NCBI RefSeq assembly: GCF_017347095.1
Contig: NZ_JADPRZ010000008.1
Coordinates: forward strand, 1 to 64,000
Length of the DNA: 64,000 bases
Source of the DNA: Sporosarcina sp. E16_8
GTDB taxonomy: Bacteria > Bacillota > Bacilli > Bacillales_A > Planococcaceae
Direction: 5' to 3'
Shown in pieces: positions 7,209-12,567 of the stretch (positions are counted from its first letter, which is position 1; every line of letters begins with the position of its first letter). A model generated the notes under the pieces. The model was given only the letters and a program-made list of their open reading frames with translations. It had not been told where the DNA came from and made no database searches. The position numbers and the translations under genes are program-made.

Positions 7209-7654
7209 ATGAAATTTTCAGAGAAGAATGTACTGATTGCCACAGGGATATTGTTTATTATTGTCGTAGCCATGTTGTGAACTTTGGCAACCAATAGACT
7301 GCTGGGCAACTTGAGAAGAAGCCTACTATAGAACTTGCTTCATTATCTGATAGCATAGATGATGGGAAACTGACTTTGGAATTTAGAAAACCGACTAACG
7401 ATATTCAATAAGAATAATAATTCATTTTGTGGAGAGCCTAAACGGCAGAATCGGCAGAATGATTATTTACAAGTTGAAGCCTATATTCCTGGATTAATTC
7501 AAGGAGATATAGTAAGAATTGTAATAGAAGATACTACATCAAAAAGAATTTAAGATTAAATACAAAACTTCTCGAAATAGCGGCATTACGATTTAAGACA
7601 AATGTTGAACGCATTCAAGAGCTTTTAGGTGCAATATCCATGTTTTCATTATAA
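7209..7654 (+). pseudogene. decayed gene, family unknown
   Basis: A start ATG 7209 with AGGAGTG upstream opens a frame for a 23-residue N-terminal membrane segment that stops at 7280. Beyond it, coding-like stretches continue in shifting frames (for example a piece containing LTLEFRKPTNDIQ, then YLQVEAYIPGLIQGDIV, then LEIAALRFKTNVERIQELLG), up to a well-formed terminator at 7671. This looks like one membrane-anchored protein gene broken by several frameshifts. I cannot name the family. Confidence 0.45.
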
Positions 7655-7862: not shown

Positions 7863-10800
7863 ATGGGACAAAAATCAACCATAAATGAAACGATGCGCTG
7901 TGGGCTTGAAATTACGGCTAATGCACGCAAAGAACTCATGAAATGGTCAACGGATGAGCACGCCTTTTTTTCGATGCAGGTTGCCTTCGATGTACATATT
8001 GAAAAGCGTCCCAATAATAGACAAGGCAATATGTCTTTTTCGTTGTTCTTTGATAATGGCTCGAACGAAGCTTTATCCAAGCGTTTAAACAATAGAGTAG
8101 CCGTAATGGAATGTGTTTATCAAAATGATGGTTTTTTAGCAACAGGTTTTCACATAAGGGGCCGTAGAGAACCCGTACAGACGAACAGGCGTCTTCCGGC
8201 ACGGTTGAAGTTTCTTGTAGGCCGCAGCACTGGAATTGCGATGCCTATTGATTTGTATACAAGCATCCGTGAATTGCCGATTGCCCAAGAACGCTCTGAG
8301 TATGTGAAGAAAAGAATTGCCAGCTGGGAAGGTTATTTGCGTATACAAGAAAGTAATGCGGATGTTGCAGATTTGACAACGGCTTTTTCAATGGCTAGTT
8401 TTAATGAAGATTTCAGTAAACTGAGTATTGTTTGTAGTGGATTAAAAGGAAATGAATGGAATACAATTAAAGGTTTTAGTGCCAAGATGAAAGGGCTACA
8501 ATATGACATTGGAAGCGTTATAAATGCAGATAGGTCTAAGAAAATTATTGAAATCGAACTAAGTCGGAATTATAAAGAAATGGCAAGACGGAATGAATGG
8601 CATCCGAAATCGTATAAGGAAGTTGTATTTAGTAATTTTGCTGAGCTTAGTCAGGTAAAAAGACTAAGGAAAGGTTTTAAAGATCTTCAAGATGGTCTAG
8701 CAGCCAATGCGAATTTAGAAAAAGTGCTTTTTGAGGAGCGACCAGTCGTTCGTATCTCGAAGAAACAGCAAGAACTAGTTTTTCATAACGAGTTAAATGA
8801 ATTCCAGCAAGAAGCCGTAACTGGCGCAATGACATCAAATGATCTGTACGTGATTCAGGGGCCTCCAGGGACTGGAAAGACGACGGTTATCTCTGAAATT
8901 TGTCATCAAAATGTCAAGGCAGGGTTGCGCACACTCGTAGCCTCACAAGCAAATCTAGCAGTGGACAATGCACTCGGCAGATTATTAGCCCATCAAGATA
9001 TTAGGATTTTACGTTATGGTCGGACAGATAGCATTGAAGAAGAAGGAAAAAAGTTTATTGAAGAAAATGTAGCATTGAACTGGAAAAACGAAACGTTAGA
9101 AGCTGTGAATAATCAGCTTCAGTCAAATTCTGAAAAAGAAGCGCAACTTCAGGATGATTTAGCTAGTTGTGAAGTACGATTGGGAAAAATTCAACTTGAC
9201 TTACTGTCATTAGATGAAAAAGTAAAGCAAAAAGAAGAGGCTGAAGCACAACACCTTGTCCTTTCTAGCGAAATCATGAAGCTCAGTAAAAAAGCAGAAA
9301 TCTATAAAAAAGAACGTGAAGAATTACTAGGTAATGAAGCTGCTTTAAATAAACTAGCCGATGTATTAAACGAGGAAATTAGTCGACTTGAACAAATTTT
9401 ACTAGTAGCAAATATTAGTCCAAAGACAATTGATAAGATGGAGAAATTAGAATTCCAATTAGAGAAAATGCGTCATTACATAAGCTATTATCAAACAAGA
9501 CAAATGATTGATGATACAGAAAATGCAATTGTAATTATAGGTAAAGAACTAGAACTGAAAAGTAATAAAATCGATACTATTCATGTATTTGTGAAACAGT
9601 TAGATTCAATAACCAAAATAGATTTATTGAAAAATCGGTTGGAGTTTTTCGGAATTGTACCGACCTTTAATATGAATTGGAAAATGACCGAACTAAATAA
9701 GGTGATTGATTCAATTAAATCTGACACGACCAGCGGCGAATACAGTGATTGGCAAGAACTACAAAACCGACTTTTAGCCGCTATAGAGATGATAGAGCGT
9801 TTGTTGAAAGAGCATGGATTTCTTCCAAATGCAGTTAGAAGAACAGTGAATCAAAAGTATAGTTCAGTGACAGATATTCATGGGCTCATTGATCGTGTTG
9901 GGAAATTTCTAATCGATCCATCGACTAAAAGTAGTCTTGAAACGAGGAATTATTCGGCTCGAAAATATGACAATCTCGATAAAATAGCCATTGCTTTGGA
10001 GATGTTACGTGAAAGAAAGAATTATGTGCAGACACAGGGCGGAAACTTGGAAAAGCAAAATCAAATCAGGTTGGATGCCGAAAAAATGTTTGCTGATATT
10101 AAGACAGAAATAATCGATCATACCCATCAATTCATTTCAGAAATAGAACAGGAAAGAAGCGCCATGCAGCGCAATGCAGAAAATCACCAAATAACACTAA
10201 ATGATCTCCAGCGTACAGCTGACAAACTTCAAAATGTGGTAGAAACTGTCGATGAAACGGTATCACTTAGTGAAGTGAAAGAACAATTGGTCCAAAAAGA
10301 ACGAGTCTATGCCGATTATTTGGATAAGAAGGAGATGCTTAAAGAATATACCAAGGGGTTAGATGCTAAAAACTGCGAAGTCGACGTTAATGCTCAAGCA
10401 TTGAAAAACAATAATGCGGCGCTTCAAGTCATAAGTGAAGAACTTGAATTGGTAAATGACGAGCGCCTTGAGCAGGAAAGCCTACTAGCACCTCTAATGG
10501 AACTGCTCGCCCAGAATCCCGAAGAACAGCGTCAACAAACGCAAACTTCATTAATGAATTTATCGGAAAAAATGAAAAAACTCAAAGTTGACAAAGAGCG
10601 CATGCCTATCAACCATTCACTTCAAGAAGAATGGAGGACACTGCTCACGGAAGCGAATGAATATGATCTTGACGAAATTCGGAAAATGTATGTACAACAT
10701 GCGAATGTAATCGGAACAACTTGCGTCGCGTCTGCGAGACGTGATTTCATGGAGGAGTATCCAACATTCGATGTGGTCATTATCGATGAGGTTTCTAAAG

Positions 10801-11723
10801 CAACCCCTCCCGAATTGTTGCTGCCAATGTTAAAAGGGAAAAAGATTATTTTAGTAGGGGATCATCATCAGTTACCGCCACTTATGGGGCAAGATACACT
10901 AGAGGAATTGCTTGAGGAAAGCGACAATGTTGAAGAAAAGAATGAACTAGAAAAACTATTGAAGGAATCATTATTTGAACGTCTTTTTAGAACATTACCT
11001 AAGCAAAACAAAACGATGCTTGCCATCCAGTATCGCATGCATGAAAGTATCATGGAAACAATTACGCCTTTTTACAAAGAAGGAAATTATGGTCTTCAAT
11101 GTGGTTTAACGGACTCCGATTCTGTTCGTGATCACCTTATAGAATCCCGCTATGTCCAAAGGAATGATCATCTTCTGTGGTTTGACATGCCGAACGAACC
11201 GAAGTATTTCGAGGAGAAGGTTAAAGGGGGAACAAGTCGTTTTAATCAGGCTGAATTGACAATGATTAAAAACCTTTTGATGGATTTAGATAAGGGCACT
11301 GAAAATGCGAAGAATGCAGGAAGAATAAAGCAGGAAGACAAAAAAAGTGTTGGTGTAATAAGTTTCTATGGTGAACAGGTGAAAAGGGTAGACCGATTGA
11401 TCCAACAAGAGTTAATTCCGCAGCATCTACATTGCAGAACTGGATCAGTGGACAAGTTTCAAGGCATGGAAATGGACGTCATTATTTTAAGTTTCGTTCG
11501 GAATCACCAGGATAAGGGTGGAGACATCGGATTTGCTAGGGACTATAGACGTCTAAATGTTGCTTTGTCTCGTGCACGTGAGTTGCTCATAATTGTGGGG
11601 AGTTCGGGTATGTTCACGATGAGGACGAAACACCCAAGTTCAAGGGAAATGTATGGCCGTCTTTTAGAAAGCATCAAATCGGAAAATGGGTTTAGAAATC
11701 TCGAAGGAATTATTAAATCGTGA
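7863..11723 (+). CDS. large SF1 (UPF1-like) helicase with coiled-coil insertion
   Basis: Predicted DNA or RNA helicase/translocase of 1286 residues. Motif I GPPGTGKTT lies at about 333-341, motif Ia (RTLVASQANLAVDNA) about 20 residues later, motif II VVIIDEVSKA near 970, motif III LVGDHHQLPP near 1000, motif IV QYRMH near 1055, motif V SVDKFQGMEMDVIILS near 1195 and motif VI RLNVALSRAR near 1230: the AAA_11/AAA_12 set of UPF1/Dna2-like SF1B helicases. Between motifs Ia and II is an insertion of some 550 residues that is mostly Glu/Lys/Leu-rich coiled coil. The 330-residue N-terminus is unrecognised. ATG 7863 is chosen for its GGAAGGAAGG site. The next gene starts just after its stop. Role unknown; repair, RNA turnover or phage defence are all possible. 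Confidence 0.88.
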   Translation: MGQKSTINETMRCGLEITANARKELMKWSTDEHAFFSMQVAFDVHIEKRPNNRQGNMSFSLFFDNGSNEALSKRLNNRVAVMECVYQNDGFLATGFHIRGRREPVQTNRRLPARLKFLVGRSTGIAMPIDLYTSIRELPIAQERSEYVKKRIASWEGYLRIQESNADVADLTTAFSMASFNEDFSKLSIVCSGLKGNEWNTIKGFSAKMKGLQYDIGSVINADRSKKIIEIELSRNYKEMARRNEWHPKSYKEVVFSNFAELSQVKRLRKGFKDLQDGLAANANLEKVLFEERPVVRISKKQQELVFHNELNEFQQEAVTGAMTSNDLYVIQGPPGTGKTTVISEICHQNVKAGLRTLVASQANLAVDNALGRLLAHQDIRILRYGRTDSIEEEGKKFIEENVALNWKNETLEAVNNQLQSNSEKEAQLQDDLASCEVRLGKIQLDLLSLDEKVKQKEEAEAQHLVLSSEIMKLSKKAEIYKKEREELLGNEAALNKLADVLNEEISRLEQILLVANISPKTIDKMEKLEFQLEKMRHYISYYQTRQMIDDTENAIVIIGKELELKSNKIDTIHVFVKQLDSITKIDLLKNRLEFFGIVPTFNMNWKMTELNKVIDSIKSDTTSGEYSDWQELQNRLLAAIEMIERLLKEHGFLPNAVRRTVNQKYSSVTDIHGLIDRVGKFLIDPSTKSSLETRNYSARKYDNLDKIAIALEMLRERKNYVQTQGGNLEKQNQIRLDAEKMFADIKTEIIDHTHQFISEIEQERSAMQRNAENHQITLNDLQRTADKLQNVVETVDETVSLSEVKEQLVQKERVYADYLDKKEMLKEYTKGLDAKNCEVDVNAQALKNNNAALQVISEELELVNDERLEQESLLAPLMELLAQNPEEQRQQTQTSLMNLSEKMKKLKVDKERMPINHSLQEEWRTLLTEANEYDLDEIRKMYVQHANVIGTTCVASARRDFMEEYPTFDVVIIDEVSKATPPELLLPMLKGKKIILVGDHHQLPPLMGQDTLEELLEESDNVEEKNELEKLLKESLFERLFRTLPKQNKTMLAIQYRMHESIMETITPFYKEGNYGLQCGLTDSDSVRDHLIESRYVQRNDHLLWFDMPNEPKYFEEKVKGGTSRFNQAELTMIKNLLMDLDKGTENAKNAGRIKQEDKKSVGVISFYGEQVKRVDRLIQQELIPQHLHCRTGSVDKFQGMEMDVIILSFVRNHQDKGGDIGFARDYRRLNVALSRARELLIIVGSSGMFTMRTKHPSSREMYGRLLESIKSENGFRNLEGIIKS

Positions 11724-11743
11724 TTTGTAGGGGGCTACTGTTT

Positions 11744-12496
11744 TTGAATGACTTAAAGGAAAGGTTAACGAAAGAACTGCAACAGGATTTTGATGTAAAA
11801 ATAATGGGCTCTCAGTCATGGAGTTTGCCTGTAAATTCAATTGAGATTGTATACCAAACCGTTATGCGGACTAAAGTAGATATTCTGATGAAAATGATGT
11901 TGATTGCATTTGGAAAAGCCGATATTGCAACAGCTGAAGAGTTGAGTGATATTCTTCTCGTCGAACAGCTTTTTATCAATGATTTAATCGATAAAATGAC
12001 TCGCTCAGGTGTAATCGAAAAAAGAGAAGGATTTTACTCTTTGACAGATGTTGGGGTACGGCAGTTTAAAACAGGGATTTTTGTCCATGAACCAGAAAAT
12101 GGCTCTAGACAGGCACTTTATAGTCCGTGCCATCAAACTTTTCTGAATGGAGAAATCAACTCTATTCCATATGAAGAGAAGGGAATATATCGCTTTAAAA
12201 ACGAATTCGACGATTGGTCTGTAGCGACACTTGAAGATACCGTTCTACTAGATGCGCTTAAAATAATGGGGGTAGAATCAGGTGAAGGAAACGTTCAGAT
12301 TGTTGTGTCCGAAATTATATCTGCTTCTGATATAGAAGTAGATTTGGTTCCTTGTATTGAATTTCATATGTATAACGAGGCTGAAGATTTACTTTATGCA
12401 AGGGTGTGGAATACGCTGTCGGAACACTGGGATGAAAAACTTGAAGCGCAATTGAATGAAAAAGAACGGAAGAAGTGGCGGGAGATTTATTTGTAG
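11744..12496 (+). CDS. winged-helix protein coupled to the helicase
   Basis: Unrecognised 250-residue protein. Residues about 55-110 form a winged-helix-like DNA-binding region (AEELSDILLVEQLFINDLID, then a Gly-Val-Ile-Glu wing and SLTDVGVRQF), while the rest is acidic with a mixed alpha/beta look and ends in a basic helix. I start at TTG 11744, nine bases after GTAGGGGG; an in-frame GTG at 11720 would overlap the helicase stop but has no site. The position directly behind the helicase gene and before a terminator implies a two-gene operon, so it probably works with the helicase, for instance as a substrate or target reader. That link is inferred from position only. Confidence 0.7.
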   Translation: MNDLKERLTKELQQDFDVKIMGSQSWSLPVNSIEIVYQTVMRTKVDILMKMMLIAFGKADIATAEELSDILLVEQLFINDLIDKMTRSGVIEKREGFYSLTDVGVRQFKTGIFVHEPENGSRQALYSPCHQTFLNGEINSIPYEEKGIYRFKNEFDDWSVATLEDTVLLDALKIMGVESGEGNVQIVVSEIISASDIEVDLVPCIEFHMYNEAEDLLYARVWNTLSEHWDEKLEAQLNEKERKKWREIYL

Positions 12497-12525
12497 TGAA
12501 CAGCTACAGACAGCTATCTACATTG

Positions 12526-12567
12526 AAAACGGGAGAATCCTTTAGGAGGGAATCTGCCGTTTTTTTA
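12526..12567 (+). terminator. terminator of the helicase operon
   Basis: Imperfect hairpin (AAACGG-AGA-TCC pairing with GGA-TCT-CCGTTT, two mismatches) followed by seven T residues. Confidence 0.7.

Follow-up and report, generated by a model that had tools for sequence, protein, structure and literature searches.

A 64,000 nt stretch of the 4.38 Mb genome of Sporosarcina sp. E16_8 (contig NZ_JADPRZ010000008.1; this whole stretch is referred to here as the window) carries a gene for a UPF1-like superfamily 1 (SF1) helicase with a long coiled-coil insertion, followed on the same strand by a gene for an elongated winged helix-turn-helix (wHTH) protein, referred to here as the partner. On balance, we lean towards the view that the two form a complex of helicase and adaptor, of the CnuH/CnuE (MkoA/MkoB-like) class and without an effector domain on the adaptor, fixed as core machinery of its family. 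The pair has the architecture of such modules and kinship with them, no recognisable effector, near-universal retention within the family and joint presence or absence wherever this was checked, and purifying selection acts on both of its genes. The predicted task of Mokosh and CnuHE modules is to sense infection and then to fire an effector; a natural effector-free helicase-wHTH half, kept as a core pair in culturable bacteria and with an apparent motor-less derivative, could separate sensing from killing and reveal what such complexes recognise.

Architecture of the helicase

The helicase gene (7863..11723, + strand) is an open reading frame (ORF) with an ATG start, encoding a protein of 1286 aa that matches the Pfam families AAA_11 and AAA_12 (E 6e-44 for the latter), the PADLOC model MkoA (E 1.6e-111, 372 bits) and, among proteins in the PDB, SMUBP-2/IGHMBP2 (E 1.8e-37). 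The features of UPF1-like SF1 membership are all present, these being motifs in two RecA domains, a stalk and a 1B barrel. A previous reading of the window made from the sequence alone (the sequence-only reading) had credited the protein with all UPF1-like motifs, and this was borne out: patterns I (GPPGTGKT, residues 333-340), II (VIIDE, residues 972-976), III, QYRM, V and VI were found in all 19 aligned orthologues. The score against TIGR00376, representing the IGHMBP2 family, was 245.6, below the curated cut-off of 348.9, and neither Pfam nor PADLOC gave a match to a Ser/Thr kinase domain.

The N-terminal domain, at residues ~11-120 (7893..8222, + strand), is beta-rich in the structural model (pLDDT 87-93 per block) and lies outside the structural matches. 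Behind it come stalk helices and a 1B beta-barrel as in UPF1/IGHMBP2, at residues ~129-290 (8247..8732, + strand), placed both by the model and by structural matches; residues ~141-290 match the stalk and barrel of IGHMBP2/UPF1 with a best Foldseek E of 2.5e-8, and VIA-align comparisons of the N-terminal region (Z 6-8) are supportive only. Of the 330-residue N terminus first described as unknown, residues ~11-120 are still without assignment, whereas residues ~141-290 can now be named as stalk and barrel. The RecA1 segment, containing motifs I (nt 8859-8882) and Ia, extends over 8763..9122 (+ strand) and is poor in the N-terminal structure model. A coiled-coil helical insertion, delimited by the orthologue alignment to residues ~421-920 (9123..10622, + strand), sits between motif Ia (~residues 360-371) and motif II, and motif II itself (nt 10776-10790) lies with RecA2 and the later motifs in 10623..11720 (+ strand). 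The insertion of about 550 residues previously proposed between motifs Ia and II is therefore real, although its variable coiled part is closer to 500 aa; the coiled coil also stands, but its description as SMC-like does not carry far, the match to SMC_prok_B being weak (E 0.011).

The partner and its kinship with MkoB-like proteins

The partner gene (11744..12496, + strand; stop codon at 12494-12496), supported by an AlphaFold2 model and an orthologue alignment, encodes a protein of 250 aa from a TTG start. The open frame extends back to a GTG at 11720; however, TTG 11744 is probably the true start, since a close orthologue has its ATG at the aligned position and GGGGG precedes the TTG, leaving a gap of about 20 nt behind the helicase gene. 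Across 80 sequences, partner length ranges from 243 to 297 aa. The AlphaFold2 model (pLDDT 92.7) has two long strand segments, at residues 18-44 (probably a hairpin) and 184-211, with a winged helix between them and a C-terminal helix after the second. Over residues 43-112 (11870..12079, + strand) it matches winged helices of the MarR type and of Csa3 (VIA-align Z up to 11.7; 2wte_A at a root-mean-square deviation of 2.1 over 71 residues), in agreement with the winged helix recognised from the sequence. The C-terminal half, residues 113-250 (12080..12493, + strand), is modelled as a beta-rich extension with the terminal helix. Foldseek returned no match to the model at E<=0.001, in a fold search that effectively covered residues 43-112 and barely tested the C-terminal half, and a viral fold library likewise gave none at E<=0.001; the best E against PDB sequences was 0.22.

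No effector domain, be it a nuclease, a kinase or any other, rose above noise in Pfam, PADLOC, NCBIfam or PHROGs, so that the absence of a visible nuclease noted at the outset holds across these collections. In particular, Pfam finds no PLD nuclease in the partner, whereas the partner at the related locus L207 matches PLDc_2 at 1.1e-9. Identification as an Rrf2/IscR regulator was rejected, the weak matches (Pfam 0.029, NCBIfam 7e-5) falling below the cut-offs.

Comparison of the partner profile with nine MkoB-like partners, an alignment from which the Aliarcobacter row had been dropped, gave a colinear hhalign match (E 3e-7, probability 93) with a score of 57.7, against 24.4 for the best of 200 column shuffles and 18.0 for the reversed profile. 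When 420 ORFs were ranked by the partner profile, the 20 orthologues were followed by the partner at L071, from the divergent genus g9 described below, and then by those at L205, L207, L203 and L208. The direct PADLOC match of the window partner to MkoB has an E of 0.0037. These profile comparisons suggest that the partner is remote kin to the N-terminal half of MkoB-like proteins, over more than the wHTH.

Related modules on plasmids and in the same genus

Among ten plasmid records, those from Cyanobacterium and Aulosira have PLD-type partners downstream of the helicase, that from Pseudanabaena has a PLD protein after a kinase-helicase, that from Aliarcobacter an unassigned partner downstream of the helicase and beside Qat, and that from Thermomicrobium a 204-aa downstream protein without a match to the window partner. 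The plasmid helicases at L228 (6397-8256), L229 (6683-8845), L230 (6901-9366) and L232 (6973-9375) are followed by proteins annotated as PIN; the N-termini of these four are similar by eye only, with a beta-hairpin and then a wHTH, and hhalign was not significant. On a plasmid of Nostoc sp. C052 (L204, 5599-12362), a BREX operon contains a helicase module between pglX and pglZ, made up of a kinase-less MkoA-like helicase, a partner joining an MkoB-like N-terminus to a DarT ADP-ribosyltransferase, and an ADP-ribosylglycohydrolase. The partners from Cyanobacterium, Aulosira and Nostoc have their N-terminal ~270 residues in common (31-33% identity to Nostoc) and differ behind them; therefore, the effector appears to be exchangeable. 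The genus of the window itself contains modules composed of an MkoA-like helicase and an MkoB-like partner of ~578 aa, at L214 (5246-10125, genome G034) and L215 (4696-9581, genome G015), the former additional to the core pair. Matches to the MkoB model PDLC03922 at E<=1e-8 occurred in five of the 151 family genomes, in three of these confined to the C-terminal part; at E<=0.001, a 454-position MkoB model matched in 41 of 200 genomes of the class, for the most part over short winged-helix stretches, a few of which belong to core partners.

In a tree of motor domains, the core helicases formed one clade of 21 rows on a branch marked 99*, and this clade adjoined the cyanobacterial, PIN and Aliarcobacter rows, whilst six Mokosh rows lay across a starred branch from the core helicases. 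This tree came from a quick search, contains several long branches and was rooted at its midpoint.

Distribution, linkage and selection

Family refers here to code f1 of the genome library, which we take to be Planococcaceae in GTDB and, for many of its members, Caryophanaceae at NCBI. The partner was found in 58 of the 61 genus genomes, with rarely more than one match in a genome, and in 131 of the 151 family genomes (17 of 19 genera), a figure that includes the weak match to the divergent g9 form in G151. At the level of the order it was present in 237 of 261 genomes, every listed row belonging to this family; in a class sample it was present in 37 of 348, with 31 inside the family and, outside it, two full-length matches (G350 and G572) and four weak ones. 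Among the best 80 of 158 loci, the named carriers include Sporosarcina, Psychrobacillus, Lysinibacillus, Ureibacillus, Rummeliibacillus and Planococcus, together with the Bacillaceae Domibacillus, Halalkalibacter and Mesobacillus. A search of the phylum found the profile at E<=1e-60 in four of 398 genomes, in one of them (G882) over the motor only; its misses carry little weight, because just two candidates per genome were scored.

The helicase search covered the 61 genus genomes and 16 genomes lacking the partner. It recovered the helicase in the same 58 genus genomes as the partner, as a single match in 56 (two of these with one internal stop) and split into two pieces in the other two; a further genus genome, G025, has part of a helicase cut at a contig end. 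None of the 16 partner-lacking genomes has a complete orthologous helicase: 13 gave no match, G025 has its cut part, and G015 and G126 contain a distant relative only. The two genes are adjacent in 55 of the 58 genus genomes and, by comparison of coordinates, lie apart with both kept in G013, G039 and G057. At least part of the helicase stands beside the partner in 79 of the 80 named loci (partial at L117 and L126, absent at L080), the closest named helicase being that of Sporosarcina sp. BP05, at 89% identity. The Bacillales pair or partner also occurs in records titled Arthrobacter beigongshangensis (L080, NZ_JADHDX010000005.1) and Planctomycetes bacterium (L117, CABYSN010000067.1), titles or bins that look mislabelled or contaminated.

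Across 20 regions from 17 genera and the window, the helicase and the partner each occur in 19 of 21, whilst the next commonest neighbour cluster occurs in five; a conserved housekeeping operon was rejected for this reason. The sequence-only reading had raised the case of homologues sharing a conserved housekeeping context in all relatives: the pair is indeed near-universal, but its neighbours mostly change from genus to genus. A FastTree tree of 78 helicase rows follows genus labels, with 21 changes over 15 groups against a mean of 46.5 for shuffled labels (as low in 0 of 200), although several genera, such as Lysinibacillus and Bacillus, are not single clades. A recent mobile defence island was rejected on the grounds of this tree and of near-universal presence in the genus and family. 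The partner has no match in 72,556 plasmid and 50,697 phage records; the helicase matches 101 plasmid records, none over 80% of the query, and one phage record over 24%.

The ratio of non-synonymous to synonymous substitution rates (dN/dS), calculated for the window pair against L076, L077 and L079, is 0.10-0.13 for the whole helicase and 0.10-0.16 for the partner, indicating purifying selection on both. It falls to 0.037 and 0.015 in RecA1, where the third comparison is saturated, and rises to 0.22-0.30 in the coiled-coil insertion in all three.

An apparent motor-less derivative

Half of the eight g9 genomes contain an ORF of ~1000 aa followed, 15-84 nt behind, by one of ~240 aa, and the other four contain neither. 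The pair in G151 lies at 6262-10038 of L071, and further g9 loci are L224-L227 and L220-L223. None of the five g9 genomes searched has an orthologue of the helicase, G126 having a more distant helicase only. The small ORF is a divergent partner, matching over nearly its full length (E 7e-10) with a score of 70.1 (best of 100 shuffles 22.4), and the large ORFs share 33-36% identity with the one in G151. Patterns for Walker A and for motifs III, QYRM, V and VI are missing from all four large proteins; a loose motif II pattern appears once, at the C-terminus of one of them. A motif-II-like stretch in g9 is not significant (14.7, shuffles reaching 22.1). The full-length comparison aligns with residues 16-287 of the helicase N-terminal region (E 2.6e-5, probability 75, a value with no shuffle control), the N-terminal block alone is marginal (33.2 against shuffles of up to 30.5), and the g9 protein as a single sequence found nothing in the helicase profile (probability 0.7). 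The g9 coiled-coil protein looks like the helicase stripped of its motor motifs and RecA2, a claim carried by the full-length comparison and the partner match.

It is conceivable, if rather doubtful, that a defence-type sensor turned into effector-free core machinery whose motor was then lost in g9. The ancient activity under selection in this helicase-wHTH class would, on such a history, be that of a coiled-coil and wHTH scaffold recognising something, with motor and nuclease as add-ons.

Proposed function and alternative explanations

By analogy with related complexes, the helicase would load on single-stranded nucleic acid, either RNA or single-stranded DNA, with RNA the more likely because of the UPF1/IGHMBP2-like 1B barrel. 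The elongated wHTH partner may dock on the coiled-coil insertion, as in the published model of CnuHE, and ATP-driven movement would then remodel or clear a nucleic acid-protein complex, with the partner recognising the substrate or passing the state on. In relatives, that state of the complex would switch on the nuclease or DarT-type domain that the partner carries as a fusion. As no fused effector is seen in the window, its complex would be either a nuclease-free surveillance and clearing machine, fixed as part of the family core, or one for which a host nuclease is recruited in trans.

Several points weigh against this explanation. The match of the partner profile to the three cyanobacterial partners is weaker than that to the nine MkoB-like ones (E 6.6e-5, probability 64; 3.1e-4, probability 39, with L204 as master), a plain hidden Markov model search of the MkoB-like ORFs with this profile gave no match at E<=1, and L204, L206, L209, L210, L214 and L215 rank low or at noise level as single sequences. 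Even in the MkoB alignment, the last ~60 residues are not confidently placed. The correlation between helicase and partner distances (r=0.94 over 77 rows, against a maximum of 0.09 in 1000 permutations) is expected from linked, vertically inherited genes alone. The trees are not reliably rooted, and 'effector-free' is therefore a safer term than 'disarmed'. The substrate, the ATPase activity and the contact between helicase and partner are those that we infer by analogy. Finally, being core does not keep a gene from serving defence, and what speaks against a purely defensive role is distributional.

This last point leads to an explanation that we regard as unlikely, though the best of the alternatives: an active anti-phage or anti-plasmid system fixed in the family. 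The helicase would then be the sensor of foreign nucleic acid or of replication intermediates, and the partner would recruit an unlinked nuclease or shut the cell down. Relatives of the pair do occur in defence settings, within a BREX operon, beside Qat, beside hsdR and toxin-antitoxin genes, and as canonical Mokosh; the coiled coil evolves at about twice the rate of the whole helicase; and 'Mokosh' calls are likewise near-universal in the B. cereus group, at 93.8% (PMC11811056), and mostly of type II. However, the pair is near-universal, usually has one match per genome and yields a tree following genus labels, its neighbours in the window are not defence genes, its operon contains no effector, and plasmids and phages contain no match to the partner. 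The defence-type interpretation first given to the pair survives as regards architecture, which is that of defence-type helicase/wHTH modules, as the MkoA match attests, but sits poorly with near-universal presence in relatives.

Quite improbable, in our judgement, is an ordinary housekeeping RNA or DNA helicase acting in repair, R-loops or transcript turnover, with the co-transcribed wHTH protein regulating transcription only and the likeness to defence reflecting common descent of the motor. The core distribution, the IGHMBP2/UPF1 likeness and the MarR-type wHTH fold would all fit, but the kinship of the partner with MkoB-type partners extends beyond the wHTH, both genes are kept in the three genomes where they lie apart, and their absence is joint. 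Least probable of all is a partner whose C-terminal half is itself a small effector or enzyme that went unrecognised, with nothing missing: this half contains invariant residues (H130, C204, N223 and D230 in 53 of 53 rows, R150 and R220 being nearly invariant) and no solved fold has been assigned to it by a search that barely reached it, yet it matches no effector family, the colinear alignment overlaps the region preceding the MkoB-like effector, albeit with low confidence at its end, and the aligned g9 partners lack the combination of H130, C204 and D230. The effector-free helicase-adaptor complex remains the explanation that we prefer.

Genomic surroundings of the pair

A hairpin followed by a U tract at 12525..12564 (+ strand) forms an intrinsic terminator behind the partner gene (-20.7 kcal/mol, z -4.78, with 0 of 200 shuffles equally stable), although a consensus terminator scanner did not list it; folding hence supports the earlier assignment to the pair of a terminator of its own. 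The decayed gene suspected next to the pair was also recovered, as the remains of a small broken gene at 7209..7547 (+ strand) that match, in two frames (tblastn E 4.8e-21 and 5.1e-12), a 133-aa ORF that is open in a close relative, where it stands upstream of the helicase. This ORF has no Pfam match, and its candidacy as a third component was rejected, a small ORF without a family match giving no sign of belonging to the pair. On one side, the neighbours encode an Na/alanine symporter, a pseudouridine synthase, an amino-acid permease, a HAD hydrolase and a urea transporter, and on the other a ROK protein, a DUF624 protein and a sugar-binding protein; no defence gene, McrB/McrC-like genes included, was found among these eight, which were the neighbours tested.

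Comparison with known systems

No published name or function for this pair was found in the titles, abstracts and partial texts searched. The class to which it seems to belong is described in PMC11090510: helicases of this UPF1-like family usually have, downstream, a gene for an elongated wHTH protein, and this protein is fused to one of various effectors, most often a nuclease. The insertion of CnuH is in part a coiled coil, and a multimer model suggests contact between it and the wHTH protein. The window pair resembles CnuH/CnuE of the CoCoNuT systems in its UPF1-like SF1 helicase, in the large helical insertion, in part coiled coil, that follows Walker A, and in the downstream gene for an elongated wHTH protein, the last at the level of layout rather than of comparison with a CnuE structure. 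It differs in that no effector is recognised on the wHTH protein, in being core to its family, and in having no McrB/McrC-like gene among the neighbours tested.

Mokosh, according to PMC11672841, is a COG1112 helicase with a PLD nuclease, type I having a kinase in addition, and a statement in PMC11291487 has it degrading viral transcripts. As in type I, the window helicase matches the MkoA model, and its partner appears akin to the N-terminal module of MkoB; in contrast, the pair has neither the Ser/Thr kinase domain nor the PLD nuclease and falls outside the Mokosh clade, whereas the L208 and L214 helicases match PADLOC kinase-type models at 1e-47 to 1e-50. The B. cereus group calls, made in 93.8% of assemblies, are mostly type II and come from PADLOC and hardly from DefenseFinder, as reported in PMC11811056. 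They may represent another core UPF1-like helicase counted as defence, and defence finders that call 'MkoA' by sequence may count core genes.

The BREX-embedded Nostoc pair at L204 also has a helicase without a kinase domain and of comparable length (annotated at 1246 aa) and a downstream partner, the gene for which overlaps that of the helicase, with an N-terminus matching MkoB models; it differs in the DarT domain on the partner, the ADP-ribosylglycohydrolase gene that follows it and the location between pglX and pglZ. With the IGHMBP2/UPF1 family, the window helicase has the RecA motor, stalk and 1B barrel in common, but it possesses a long coiled-coil insertion, an extra N-terminal domain and a wHTH partner gene. 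Whilst the helicase and wHTH class has already been published, the literature searched gave no name for its effector-free, family-core form.

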